Assembly: GCF_022012305.1 (NCBI RefSeq) | Contig: NZ_JAKLTM010000001.1 | Span: forward strand, 1,116,001-1,180,000 | Length of the DNA: 64,000 nucleotides | Direction of reading: 5' to 3' | From: Ramlibacter paludis | GTDB taxonomy: Bacteria > Pseudomonadota > Gammaproteobacteria > Burkholderiales > Burkholderiaceae_C | Shown: piece by piece, positions 21,461 to 30,548 of the stretch | Layout of the letters: every line of letters starts with the position of its first letter | Numbering within the stretch: the first letter of the stretch is position 1 | Translations under genes and position numbers: made by a program | The notes under the pieces: model-generated | What the model was told of the DNA's origin: nothing | Databases searched by the model: none | Seen by the model: only the letters and a program-made list of their open reading frames with translations

Positions 21461-23104
21461 ATGCGCCGCATCGCTCGCTCGCTCTGCCTGTTGGCAACCT
21501 GCCTCCTGCCCCTGCTGTCGCTGGCGGATAAGCAGACGGTCTGCACCATCACCATCAACTCCGCGGACGAGAAGGAAGCCTTCCGCCGTTCGCTCCCGGC
21601 CGACAAGTACCAGTTCGTCGAACTGGTCGAGAAGGGCCGCAAGGACTGGCTGCAGTCTTCCTGCGAAGCCAAGGTCTCCTGCGACATCCTGGTCATCTCC
21701 GGGCACCACGGCGAAGGCAACGTGTTCTTCTCCGACTCGCTGACCCGCAACGAGTACCTGCCGGTCGAGGAGCTGGAGCGCGTGTCCTGCTCCGGCTCCT
21801 GCCCCATGTTCGAGCACCTGAAGGAGGTCTACCTCTTCGGCTGCAACACGATGAACTCGACGGCGCAGCACACCATCTCGGGCGAGATCGCGCGCAGCTA
21901 TTCGCGCGAGGGCAAGTCCGCCGACGAGGCCGCCCGCCTGGCGCGCCTGCTGGGCCAGCAGCGCGGCGAAAGCAGCCGCGACCGCATGCGCCTGTTGTTC
22001 AAGGACGTGCCGGTCATCTACGGCTTTTCCGGCGTGGCGCCGCTGGGCCAGACGGCCGGCCCGCTGCTCAGCCGCTATTTCCAGGGCGCGGGCAGCTCCG
22101 AGATCGGCAAGGGCCGCGCGAGCGGTGGCCTGCTGCGCCAGTTCTCGTCGCACAACCTGGTGGCTGCCAGCGGCATCCGCGACGGCGATCCGCTGCAGCC
22201 GCTGCGGCAGGACGTGTGCAAGTTCGCGGACGATCGCATGTCGCCCGCCGACCGCGTGACCGCCGTCCATGCGATGCTGAAGCGGCCGACCGCCGAATCG
22301 CGCCTGCTGCTCGATCGGATCGAGGAACTCACCGACACGCTGACCGCGAGCGTGCGCAAGCAGCCTGAAGTGGCGAAGGCACTGGATGCCGTCGTTGCGG
22401 ACACCGCCGCGCGCGACCGCTACCTGGCCTTCGCCCGCGATGCCGACGAACCGGTGACCCGCGCCCGCATGATCGACGTGGCGCACGATTTCGGCTGGCT
22501 TTCCACCGGCCAGCGCAAGACGGAGCTCGTGGCCATGCTGGGCGACGTGATGGCGCGCAAGGAAGTGGCCGCGCCGGAAGTGGACCTGGCCTGCACCCTG
22601 AACAAGAGCGGCGAGCTGAATGGCGCGCTGGATGCGCAGGCCGGCAAATCCGACGCCGCCGGCCATTCCGCCTTGCTGGCCTGCCTGGGCAACCGCGAGG
22701 CCCGTGAACGCGTGCTGGCGCGCCTCGCGAGCCCCGCCGACGCGGACGTGCGCATCGCGCAGGCCTACCTGCGCCATCGGCCGCTGCAGGAGGCGACCGA
22801 GCTGCGCGGCATGACGCAGGCCATCGCCCGCATGAGCGCGCCCGACGCGCAGACCCGCGCGCTGGACGTGCTGGCCCGGCATTACCTCTCCGACCGCGAA
22901 ACGGTCGACACGCTGCGCCAGCTGTTCGCCAAGACGCGTTCGGCGCCGGTGCAGAACGCGATTGCCGGCGTGCTGATCCGCGCCGACAAGAAGTCCGTGG
23001 AAGCGGGAGAACTGTTGCGCACGCTGAAGGAAAACCGCGTGAAAACGTCGCCGGGCGACAACATGGTGGATGCGCTGATCCACCGATTGCAGGAATCTTC
23101 CTGA
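21461..23104 (+). CDS. Secreted caspase-fold (CHAT-like) peptidase candidate with helical-repeat tail, copy A
   Basis: 547 residues with a signal peptide (RRIARSLCLLATCLLPLLSLAD). I recognise no named family. The N-terminal domain (about 25-210) alternates beta strands and helices and has a conserved His in ILVISGHHGEG (H82) and Cys in VYLFGCNT (C128). The spacing and strand-end placement resemble the His/Cys dyad of clan CD caspase/CHAT peptidases. Extra cysteines (C28, C68, C74, C110, C114) are compatible with periplasmic disulfides. Residues about 240-545 are all-helical with HEAT-like units (RIAQAYLRHRPLQEATELRG). A paralogue follows 93 bases downstream. The ATG at 21461 is preceded by GAAGGG. 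Peptidase activity is a hypothesis from motif pattern only. Confidence 0.65.
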   Translation: MRRIARSLCLLATCLLPLLSLADKQTVCTITINSADEKEAFRRSLPADKYQFVELVEKGRKDWLQSSCEAKVSCDILVISGHHGEGNVFFSDSLTRNEYLPVEELERVSCSGSCPMFEHLKEVYLFGCNTMNSTAQHTISGEIARSYSREGKSADEAARLARLLGQQRGESSRDRMRLLFKDVPVIYGFSGVAPLGQTAGPLLSRYFQGAGSSEIGKGRASGGLLRQFSSHNLVAASGIRDGDPLQPLRQDVCKFADDRMSPADRVTAVHAMLKRPTAESRLLLDRIEELTDTLTASVRKQPEVAKALDAVVADTAARDRYLAFARDADEPVTRARMIDVAHDFGWLSTGQRKTELVAMLGDVMARKEVAAPEVDLACTLNKSGELNGALDAQAGKSDAAGHSALLACLGNREARERVLARLASPADADVRIAQAYLRHRPLQEATELRGMTQAIARMSAPDAQTRALDVLARHYLSDRETVDTLRQLFAKTRSAPVQNAIAGVLIRADKKSVEAGELLRTLKENRVKTSPGDNMVDALIHRLQESS

Positions 23105-23197
23105 TTTCCGCCTGCCCGAGCTAGCGCCGGTGGCCCCGGCGCTGCAGAGCCAGGGGGGTGTGGAATACTGGCCGCCTTCGCGCGCGGTTCCTCTTCC

Positions 23198-24853
23198 ATG
23201 CACCTCCTGTCGCTCTCCCGAAAGCTGGCCCTGCTGGCCTGTGTGGCCGCTGCCATGGCCGTGCAGGCCGCGCCCAGGACGGTGTGCACCATCACCGTCA
23301 ACTCGCCCGACGAGCGCGACAGCTTCAAGCGCAACCTTCCGCCCGGCGACTACAAGTTCGTCGAACTGGTCGAGCGCGGCCGCCCCGACTGGCTGGCGTC
23401 GGCCTGCCAGCAGCAGGTGCAGTGCGACGCGCTCATCATCTCCGGCCACTTCGATGGCGGCGACGAGTTCTACACCGACCGGCACGACCAGAGCGAGTAC
23501 CTGGCCGTCGAGGAAATGGAACGTGCCTCGTGCAGCGGCTCCTGCCCCGGCGTGTTCGCCAACCTGAAGGAGGTCTACCTCTTCGGCTGCAACACGCTCA
23601 AGCCGGAAGCGCGGCAGACGGCCAGCGAAGACATCGTGCGCGGCATGTTGCGCTCGGGCCGATCGCCCGGCGAGGCGCTGAAGGCGGCCGGTGTGCTGGG
23701 CGATCTCTATGCGCGCAGCAACCGCGACCGCATGAAGCACATCTTCAAGGACGTGCCGGTCATCTACGGTTTCTCCTCGCTGGCGCCCCTGGGCCGCACC
23801 GCCGGGCCGCTCCTCGACAAGTACTTCCAGACGGCGCCGGCCACCGAGGTGGGCAGCGGCCAGGTGAGCAGCAAGCTCATGGGCGCGTTCTCGAACACCG
23901 CGCTGGTCGTCACGCCGGGCCTGGGCGATGCGGACCCGCAGGCGCAGGTGCGCCGCGACGCCTGCCAGCTGCTGGACAACCGCACGACCGATGCGCAGAA
24001 GGTCGCCTTCCTGCACCAGGTGCTGCAGCGTGATGCGGCGGAAGTGCGCATGTTCCTGTGGCACCTGGAGCGCTTTGCCGGTTCGATCAAGCCCTTGCAG
24101 CGCCTGAAGCCGGACACGGCGGCGGAGTTCGACAAGCTCGCCGGCGACCAGGCTGCGCGCAAGCGCTTCATGGACTCGGCGCGCGACGCCGACGATTCGA
24201 ACGTGCGCATGCGCATGGTGGCCCTGGCTCGCAACTTCGGCTGGCTGACGCCGGAGCAGGAGCAGGCGGAACTGGTGCGCACCATCGCCGACCAGATCGC
24301 GCGCGACCGCGTGGGCCGCGACGAACTGGAGATCGCCTGCGCCGGCGGCGCGCGCGAGCGCAAGGATCCCGCGCTCCTGGCCATGGCAGCCGGCGCCTTG
24401 AAGTCCGGCAAGGTGGCACCGGCCGCGGCCATGGCCTGCCTGGGCAACGCCGAGGCGCACGCGCGCGTGGTCAACGCCATGACCAGCGCGAAGGCCGAGG
24501 ACATCGACATGGCGCGCGCCTACCTGAAGCACCGGCCTCTGGCGGCGGGCGACCTGCGCAGCATCGCCGCGGGCATCGCCCGCATGCCGGCCTCCGACGC
24601 GCAGGTGGTGGCGCTGGAGACGCTGGCGCAGCAGCGCCTGGCCGACCCGGACAGCCTGCGCGAGATCGCGCGCCTGTTCCCGCTGACGAAGTCGGTGCAG
24701 GTGCAGCGCGCGATCGCCAAGGTCCTGATCCGCTCGGACTACCGCGTGCTCGGAGCGCCGCAGCTGGCGCAGTCGCTGAAACAGAGCCGCATCAAGTCGC
24801 CGGATGGCGATGACGTGATCGACGCGTTGATTCGGGTGCTGCAGCAAAGCTAA
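23198..24853 (+). CDS. Secreted caspase-fold (CHAT-like) peptidase candidate with helical-repeat tail, copy B
   Basis: 551 residues, signal peptide LLSLSRKLALLACVAAAMAVQAA. It is clearly paralogous to the preceding gene over its whole length: TVCTITVNSPDERDSFKRNLP, LIISGHFDGGDE (H84), VYLFGCNT (C131), FKDVPVIYGFSSLAPLGRTAGP, and the C-terminal helical repeats (AYLKHRPLAAGDLRSIAAGI). The putative dyad His and Cys are both kept while surrounding residues have diverged, and the CSGSCP block is conserved. Probably periplasmic or exported. Tandem duplication with retained dyad suggests two related peptidases with different substrates, or an enzyme pair acting together. Function otherwise unknown. 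Confidence 0.65.
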   Translation: MHLLSLSRKLALLACVAAAMAVQAAPRTVCTITVNSPDERDSFKRNLPPGDYKFVELVERGRPDWLASACQQQVQCDALIISGHFDGGDEFYTDRHDQSEYLAVEEMERASCSGSCPGVFANLKEVYLFGCNTLKPEARQTASEDIVRGMLRSGRSPGEALKAAGVLGDLYARSNRDRMKHIFKDVPVIYGFSSLAPLGRTAGPLLDKYFQTAPATEVGSGQVSSKLMGAFSNTALVVTPGLGDADPQAQVRRDACQLLDNRTTDAQKVAFLHQVLQRDAAEVRMFLWHLERFAGSIKPLQRLKPDTAAEFDKLAGDQAARKRFMDSARDADDSNVRMRMVALARNFGWLTPEQEQAELVRTIADQIARDRVGRDELEIACAGGARERKDPALLAMAAGALKSGKVAPAAAMACLGNAEAHARVVNAMTSAKAEDIDMARAYLKHRPLAAGDLRSIAAGIARMPASDAQVVALETLAQQRLADPDSLREIARLFPLTKSVQVQRAIAKVLIRSDYRVLGAPQLAQSLKQSRIKSPDGDDVIDALIRVLQQS

Positions 24854-29324: not shown

Positions 29325-30548
29325 TCACTTCCCGAACATCCGCGTGACGTGCTGCCAGCCGCGCTGGAAGAAGCCGGCGCGTTCCACGTCGGCCTGCGCA
29401 ACCAGCGGCGCTTCGCCGATGGGCTTGCCGTTGGAAGTGGCAACCACCTTGCCGATGACGGCGCCCTTGGCGACAGGCGCTTCCAGGTCCGGCTTGATCT
29501 GCACCGCCGTCTGCACCTGCTGGCCGCGCGGCACGGTCAGCGACCAGGGCGCGGCGAGCGCGGCGGTGACCGTGTCGGCCTTGCCGAACGCCACCTTGGC
29601 CGTCGTCGGCGCGACGTTGGCCGTGGCCTTCTCGAAGTTGGCGAAGCCCCATCCGAGCAGCGTGCGCGTCTGGTCGGCGCGCGCCTGGGCGCTGGGGGTG
29701 TTGAGGATGACGGTGATCAGGCGCATGTTGTTGCGCTTGGACGAGGTCACCAGGCAGTAGCCGGCGTCCTCGGTGTGGCCGGTCTTCAGGCCGTCCACCG
29801 TGGGGTCGGTGTAGAGCAGGGCGTTGCGGTTGCCCTGCTTGATCTTGTTGTACGTGAAGTCCCGCTCGGCGTAGATCGGGTAGTACTCGGAGCTGTCCTT
29901 GATGATGGCGCGCGCCAGGATCGCCAGGTCGCGCGCCGAGGCCTTGTGCGCGGGGTCGGGCAGGCCGGTGGCGTTGACGAAGTTGGTGTGCGTCATGCCC
30001 AGGCGCTTGGCTTCGGCGTTCATCAGCTTGGCGAAGCCTGCCTCGGAGCCGCCCATGTGTTCGGCGATCGCCTTGGAGGCATCGTTGCCCGACTGGATGA
30101 TGATGCCGCGCAGGATGTCGATCACGGTGGCCTGGCCGTTGAGCGGCAGGTACATGCACGACTCGGTGCTGGAGCCGCGGCACCAGGCGGTCTGGCTCGT
30201 CGTGACGAGCTCGTCCTTCTTCAGCTTGCCCGAGCGCAGCGCCTGCTCCACCAGGTAGCTCGTCATCATCTTGGTCAGCGACGCGGGCGGCAGCGGCTCG
30301 TCCGGGTTGGCCGAAGCGAGGACCTCGCCCGAATCGAAGTCCATCAGCAGCCAGGCCTTGGCGGCCAGCACGGGCGCGCCGCCGCTGACCGCGGTCTGGC
30401 CGGCGGCGGGTTCGGGGGCGGAGGCCGCGGCTGCGGCGGGCTTGGCCTTGGCCGCGGGCTTGGCCGCGAGGGAGGGCGCGCTGGCCGACAGGGCGGCGGC
30501 GCCGAGGGCGAAGGCGAGGGGCAGGAGGAAGCGACGTTGGAATTTCAT
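29325..30548 (-). CDS. dacC: D-alanyl-D-alanine carboxypeptidase (PBP5/6 type)
   Basis: 407 residues with a signal peptide (about 1-29), then an Ala/Pro/Lys-rich linker (30-60). The active-site motifs of the S11 family are S90-L-T-K93, S153-G-N and K255-T-G. A C-terminal beta domain and a terminal amphipathic stretch (GFFQRGWQHVTRMF) anchor it to the outer face of the inner membrane. It removes the terminal D-Ala from peptidoglycan pentapeptides. The exact paralogue (dacA or dacC) is uncertain; the low-complexity linker after the signal is an oddity for the family. Confidence 0.93.
   Translation of the reverse strand: MKFQRRFLLPLAFALGAAALSASAPSLAAKPAAKAKPAAAAASAPEPAAGQTAVSGGAPVLAAKAWLLMDFDSGEVLASANPDEPLPPASLTKMMTSYLVEQALRSGKLKKDELVTTSQTAWCRGSSTESCMYLPLNGQATVIDILRGIIIQSGNDASKAIAEHMGGSEAGFAKLMNAEAKRLGMTHTNFVNATGLPDPAHKASARDLAILARAIIKDSSEYYPIYAERDFTYNKIKQGNRNALLYTDPTVDGLKTGHTEDAGYCLVTSSKRNNMRLITVILNTPSAQARADQTRTLLGWGFANFEKATANVAPTTAKVAFGKADTVTAALAAPWSLTVPRGQQVQTAVQIKPDLEAPVAKGAVIGKVVATSNGKPIGEAPLVAQADVERAGFFQRGWQHVTRMFGK

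Follow-up and report, generated by a model that had tools for sequence, protein, structure and literature searches.

A tandem pair of predicted exported caspase-fold proteins in Ramlibacter paludis and its distant likeness to CHAT proteases

The stretch of DNA analyzed here (the window) comprises 64,000 nucleotides of Ramlibacter paludis (assembly GCF_022012305.1, contig NZ_JAKLTM010000001.1, positions 1,116,001 to 1,180,000 of the forward strand). It contains two adjacent genes, A and B, that lie 93 bases apart on the plus strand and encode paralogous proteins with 46% identity. A preliminary description, made from the letters alone, had reported two full-length paralogues of 547 and 551 residues, and the coordinates and lengths hold. 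The features of the pair, in window positions, are as follows.

21461..23104, plus strand: gene A, 547 amino acids, predicted exported caspase-fold protein with an ARM/HEAT-like tail
21461..21523, plus strand: predicted signal peptide of A (about residues 1-21), a hydrophobic stretch; the N-terminus has low confidence in the model
21524..22183, plus strand: predicted caspase-type domain of A (residues 22-241)
21704..21706, plus strand: His82 codon of A, putative catalytic His, invariant in 54/54 rows and aligned to the CHAT His
21842..21844, plus strand: Cys128 codon of A, putative nucleophile, invariant in 54/54 rows and aligned to the CHAT Cys
22196..23101, plus strand: predicted helical repeat tail of A (about residues 246-547), all-helical in the model and matched by ARM/HEAT proteins
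23198..24853, plus strand: gene B, 551 amino acids, paralogue of A
23198..23266, plus strand: predicted signal peptide of B (about residues 1-23), a hydrophobic stretch
23267..23956, plus strand: predicted caspase-type domain of B (residues 24-253; modelled alone)
23447..23449, plus strand: His84 codon of B, invariant column, aligned to the CHAT His
23588..23590, plus strand: Cys131 codon of B, invariant column, aligned to the CHAT Cys
23945..24850, plus strand: predicted helical repeat tail of B, placed by its alignment with A

In the structure model of A, the N-terminal part is a caspase-type alpha/beta/alpha sandwich. His82 follows strand 76-80 and Cys128 follows strand 122-126, which is the clan CD arrangement of a His behind one core strand and a Cys behind the next, in that order. 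The domain of B, modelled alone, has the same order of strand, His, strand, and Cys. These models agree with the earlier proposal that the His after ISGH and the Cys in YLFGCNT each stand behind a strand and resemble the clan CD dyad. Structure comparison with VIA-align 2 returned clan CD proteins only among 50 rows (mostly at 3.0-4.2 Å), C11 proteins among them. The C-terminal tail of A is all-helical in the model and matched ARM/HEAT proteins in the structure search, as the proposed HEAT-like tail had implied; that of B follows by alignment. All 54 distinct full-length rows have His82 and Cys128 (numbered as in A), and homologues lacking either residue, which would have spoken against a dyad, did not occur. 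Both are also invariant in 25/25 rows of alignment A2 (23 distinct, as two rows repeat L019 under another number). They belong to the 14 invariant positions of alignment A6 (16 rows), which joins the window family and its short relatives described below. The family motif at the Cys is FGC[NKD]T. At three loci (L057:8542-10215, L062:7992-9806, and L063:7758-9347), about 23 residues behind the Cys are missing from one of the paired copies; the gap falls at profile positions of about 147-170, between strands 4 and 5, and the His, the Cys, and the rest are retained.

Profile-profile comparisons (hhalign) covered CHAT, C14, and C13. A6 matched an 18-row CHAT alignment with a score of 43.4 (E = 1.5e-5, probability 79), with the family His on the CHAT His and the family Cys on the CHAT Cys, and 60 column shuffles scored at most 22.5. 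As yardsticks, CHAT scored 48.5 with C13 and 79.8 with C14, which suggests that the distance between the family and CHAT is similar to that between CHAT and C13, with the caveat that hhalign scores also depend on alignment depth. With C14 (PF00656), A6 scored 16.0 (E = 0.19) over 28 columns with the dyad unaligned; this is the shuffle level, and C14 was rejected as the nearest family on that ground. With a 20-row C13 alignment (PF01650), the score was 26.1 (E = 0.0057, probability 6; 60 shuffles at most 20.1) and the His and Cys were unaligned, so C13 was rejected because its dyad was out of register. Short profile matches are noisy, given that reversed C14 scored 28.5 over 13 columns with A3, the alignment of the window family alone. 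The CHAT, C13, and C14 alignments drew on 18, 20, and 15 of 20 loci, respectively (for C14, three were not chosen and two had odd lengths). Neither A nor B matched the Pfam models of CHAT (PF12770, E up to 10) or C14 (PF00656), and the Pfam scan gave no C11 or C25 match at E up to 10. Searched in six frames with PF12770, the own genome had a single match, located elsewhere and under the cut-off. Outside the window, this genome also has a C13-type match (G000:C1:965863-966243) and a single C14-type match (G000:C12:202444-203388).

Both proteins start with a hydrophobic stretch ahead of the conserved TVCT strand, with a best 12-residue Kyte-Doolittle mean of 2.6 for each (a rough estimate rather than a SignalP prediction). 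All 25 rows of A2 have such a stretch before the first strand, in agreement with the signal peptides proposed earlier. Among nine conserved cysteines, C28, C74, C110, C128, C253, C378, and C408 are invariant in the 54 rows, whereas C68 and C114 are jointly present in 50 and jointly absent in the other four. Because the two are lost together, C114 looks like a disulfide partner rather than a part of the active site. C68-C114 may thus be read as a disulfide with C128 as the cysteine left free; any pairing of the other six conserved cysteines would be a guess. The preliminary description had counted a CSGSCP block among the conserved elements along with the His and Cys. This stands for the dyad, but not fully for the block, which includes C114. 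From the leader and the cysteine pattern, we infer probable export and disulfide formation.

Pfam, NCBIfam, PADLOC, PHROGs, and PDB sequences hold no family for A or B. The PDB matches were chance-like (best E = 0.0056, to designed repeat proteins), a further Pfam search gave six single-member matches (E of 0.11 or worse), and PADLOC models gave none at E up to 10. B had no match in 50,697 phage records or in 72,556 plasmid records, and 128 pattern matches on viral contigs included no relatives. In the open-licence part of PubMed Central, no paper was recognised as describing the family, consistent with the initial impression of an unfamiliar system. Relatives were found in 11 of 60 genomes of the genus, 7 of 200 of the window's family, and 6 of 300 of the order, as well as in 2 of 299 in the phylum sample (the own genome plus another member of its family) and 1 of 274 in the class sample (the own genome only); the own genome is counted in all of these overlapping samples. 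In f39, the family of G481, 20 of 64 genomes have relatives (E up to 0.01), three of them short relatives only. One locus (L022) is carried in a record labelled as an Alphaproteobacteria metagenome-assembled genome. As far as sampled, the A/B family is patchy and belongs to one order. Alignment A1 comprises six of seven loci; neither L022, whose contig is short and broken, nor the split L021 copy of A is included.

Pairing is a nearly constant feature of the family. Among 29 distinct loci with a full-length-type gene, 27 have at least two adjacent copies and the other two stop at a contig end; this count leaves out L022 and the f39 genomes G1090, G1107, G1108, and G1136, which had matches. The 27 include one triple, one convergent pair, one locus with A split over two frames, and one with the second copy cut by a contig end. 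Open-frame gaps between neighbouring copies are at most 533 bases, and pairs are present in three family-level groups (f1, f23, and f39). In a 54-row tree, from which four short pieces and L129 (a duplicate), L065, L136, and L137 are absent, the B copies form one clade of 23 rows (support 99/97). The f1 A copies form a clade together with two copies of the triple locus L128, and the nearest rows to the window are from Ramlibacter. Twenty two-copy loci have one copy inside the B clade and one outside, and in 19 of these (12 in f1 and 7 in f39) B lies downstream on the same strand; in the twentieth (L130:5004-8538) the copies are convergent yet adjacent. In L128 the B copy is last. The pairs of L020, L138, and f23 fall within one side of the tree, and in f23 the copy order is swapped between G221 and G444. 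Across 12 f1 genomes, A-A and B-B distances are correlated (r = 0.892; none of 5,000 permutations as high). The ratio of nonsynonymous to synonymous substitution rates (dN/dS) is 0.23-0.29 for both genes in all six comparisons (window, L016, and L017), indicating that A and B are under purifying selection, and the earlier preference for function over drift is borne out. Judged from this distribution, the A/B pair is an old unit.

Shorter relatives of about 268-326 amino acids, with the His and Cys but no helical tail, occur in the f39 genomes G481, G1092, and G1093.

L137:2055-4114, minus strand: short relatives, SGHH and GC[DE]T motifs
L136:613-2834, plus strand: short relatives, SGHH and GC[DE]T motifs
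L028:1258-2064, minus strand: short relative, SGHH and GC[DE]T motifs

They sit between ilvD and lgt (Pfam), in tandem in two of the three loci. The five short relatives are 19-27% identical to the B domain, and the residue after the His is His in every one. A profile built from them alone found only the window pair in the own genome (E = 1.3e-7 and 2.4e-5), and the two tested whole had no Pfam match. One A-like copy (in L136) is broken by a stop.

Upstream of the window pair are genes for a DctP solute-binding protein and a class II dehydroquinase (AroQ), and downstream is one for an M20 peptidase (Pfam). No third gene has a fixed place beside the pair among 18 distinct loci, nor among 26 loci including f39, and the earlier remark that the pair has no partner gene is upheld. 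The 26-locus survey yielded four gene clusters found in 3 to 7 loci each, 1.4-7.8 kb off, on either side and either strand. One of the nine proteins flanking the pair in the window had a match beside another copy of the pair. In 10 Ramlibacter stretches around DctP, AroQ adjoins in nine, and none has the pair or the M20 gene within about 9-10 kb behind (>35% identity) or any downstream counterpart. The pair lies elsewhere in four of the genomes concerned (G198, G774, G772, and G782), which shows that its chromosomal site varies within one genus; transfer or rearrangement may account for this.

Taken together, these findings make it probable that A and B are two exported cysteine peptidases of clan CD that act as a couple. 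Both would be periplasmic or secreted endopeptidases in which H82/H84 activates C128/C131 for the cleavage of a peptide bond, and the helical tail may bind a substrate or partner. The two would function jointly: they may form a heteromeric protease, or one may activate the other in a two-step cascade, with about even chances between these forms. The occurrence as matched pairs points to a protease system of two proteins that would act outside the cytoplasm. A caspase-type protease cascade is known to be started by SAVED-CHAT. A more specific proposal, for which we hold out limited expectation, is that of a new clan CD peptidase family in the form of a self-contained initiator/effector-like couple outside the cytoplasm, with genes that travel as a unit. 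One exported caspase-fold enzyme would activate or complete the other, the helical tails would choose the target, and another Burkholderiales lineage would have a shorter version of the couple, placed between ilvD and lgt. For the main reading of an exported peptidase couple, confidence is slightly reduced in view of the less clear-cut A type in f39 and the sharing of a flank gene.

Several results weigh against an active peptidase couple. The catalytic His of clan CD is followed by Gly, and in all 25 A2 rows the residue after the His is His, Phe, or Tyr (SGH[HFY]); this is a genuine departure from the clan pattern. The structure models were built on 13 related sequences. Foldseek by itself did not pick out the caspase fold; one search led to helical-repeat and designed proteins, and the top match of the domain was a thioesterase (E = 4.7e-4, template modeling (TM) score 0.25), whereas a caspase first appeared at rank 41 (E = 0.072, TM about 0.46). 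A3 matched CHAT weakly (score 27.2, E = 0.0036, probability 9; shuffles at most 23.1), in the same dyad register as A6. The f39 "A" copies lie outside the B clade and do not join the f1 A clade, and co-divergence of A and B would also be expected from joint inheritance without interaction. In R. montanisoli (L021; L067:7790-9488, G782), A is divided between two frames next to an intact B, which, if not a sequencing error, would speak against a strict need for both. The shared flank gene, D-Ala-D-Ala carboxypeptidase-like by eye, is at about 29328-30400 of the window (minus strand), 4.5 kb behind the pair and on the other strand, and directly before A in L066 (G774; L066:11511-12593, minus strand), with 84.5% over 362 residues.

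The departure at the His would suit a catalytically dead scaffold pair, in which the caspase fold is kept for binding, the His and Cys are structural, and the proteins form an exported binding complex. Pseudo-orthocaspases, as portrayed in an excerpt of PMC6426788, reuse the fold without the dyad, but carry Tyr and Ser instead. Here, the two residues persist in all 54 full-length rows and all five short relatives, and they are among just 14 positions invariant across A6; we consider a dead scaffold improbable. Even less credible is an unrelated Rossmann-like or alpha/beta-hydrolase domain that mimics a caspase, which we regard as very improbable. The Foldseek matches to thioesterases and EF-Tu would favor it, but the top ten matches of the domain fit poorly (TM (query) 0.24-0.32, root-mean-square deviation 11-15 Å), the VIA-align 2 rows are all from clan CD, and the His and Cys align with the CHAT dyad.

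A more serious contender, which we consider possible but clearly less likely than joint action, is that A and B are independent exported peptidases with different substrates, side by side through tandem duplication and joint inheritance; this estimate overlaps with that for the peptidase couple. Type-specific residues, two of them near the dyad in sequence (F90/Y92 and N132/K135), the intact B beside a split A in R. montanisoli, and recent local duplications (L020, L138, L128, and f23) all fit with it. It accounts less well for pairing in f1, f23, and f39 at different chromosomal sites, for the downstream position of B in 19 of the 20 two-type pairs, and for the recurrence of pairing in two of three short-relative loci. 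As for the role of the couple, the peptidases may hit the envelope upon attack by a phage or rival, as a defence or self-destruction module. Known CHAT defence proteins are cytoplasmic, and neither PADLOC, the phage and plasmid records (for B), nor the neighbourhood survey gave a match or a fixed gene in favor of such a role. Patchy presence (in the genus and family samples above), a variable chromosomal site, and likeness to CHAT, a domain of CRISPR-linked proteases in excerpts of PMC9729208 and PMC10028731, point the other way. On balance, this role is compatible with the preferred peptidase couple and seems rather improbable.

With regard to known systems, the A/B family has its dyad in register with CHAT (PF12770; SAVED-CHAT 8tl0, TPR-CHAT/Csx29). 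It differs from CHAT in having no Pfam CHAT match, in its predicted export, C-terminal ARM/HEAT-like tail, and cysteine pairs, and in SGHx instead of HG, and no CRISPR or sensor gene was seen nearby. To our knowledge, the CHAT-type proteases described so far are cytoplasmic and act behind a sensor. Exported or lysosomal members of clan CD include C11 (clostripain and iotapain), C25 (gingipain), and C13 (legumain, out of register with A/B), and we know of no paired-gene organisation in these families. Separase (C50) is unlike A/B, being eukaryotic, not exported, and not paired, with a solenoid that is N-terminal to its protease part. The C14 families (caspases, metacaspases, and orthocaspases) have DxCH or DxCR around the Cys, according to an excerpt of PMC5756287; this motif is absent from A/B, which has FGC[NKD]T and neither a Pfam nor a profile match to C14. 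In an excerpt of PMC3501461, 46 bacterial metacaspase sequences have a single N-terminal helix, maybe a signal peptide, and one HEAT-repeat metacaspase has a NACHT domain; thus, export and helical repeats are not new for caspase folds. What appears to be new is the CHAT-nearest branch without an entry in the five libraries searched, its putative export leader, and its A/B pairing. The finding would add a branch distant from CHAT, with export leaders and cysteine pairs, whose A/B couple has been maintained in different family-level groups within a single order. Should the two proteins act jointly, they would provide a compact model of mutually dependent caspase-type proteases without a sensor gene, and proteins missed by these libraries would gain a concrete candidate activity.

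For the expression of the pair, a promoter scan of the locus gave no sigma-70-like sites, and a terminator scan gave one terminator-like site, fewer than the shuffled mean of 1.8. The gap between A and B contains, by eye, a GC-rich perfect inverted repeat (window 23123-23143) with 8-base arms, a 5-base loop, and no T run.
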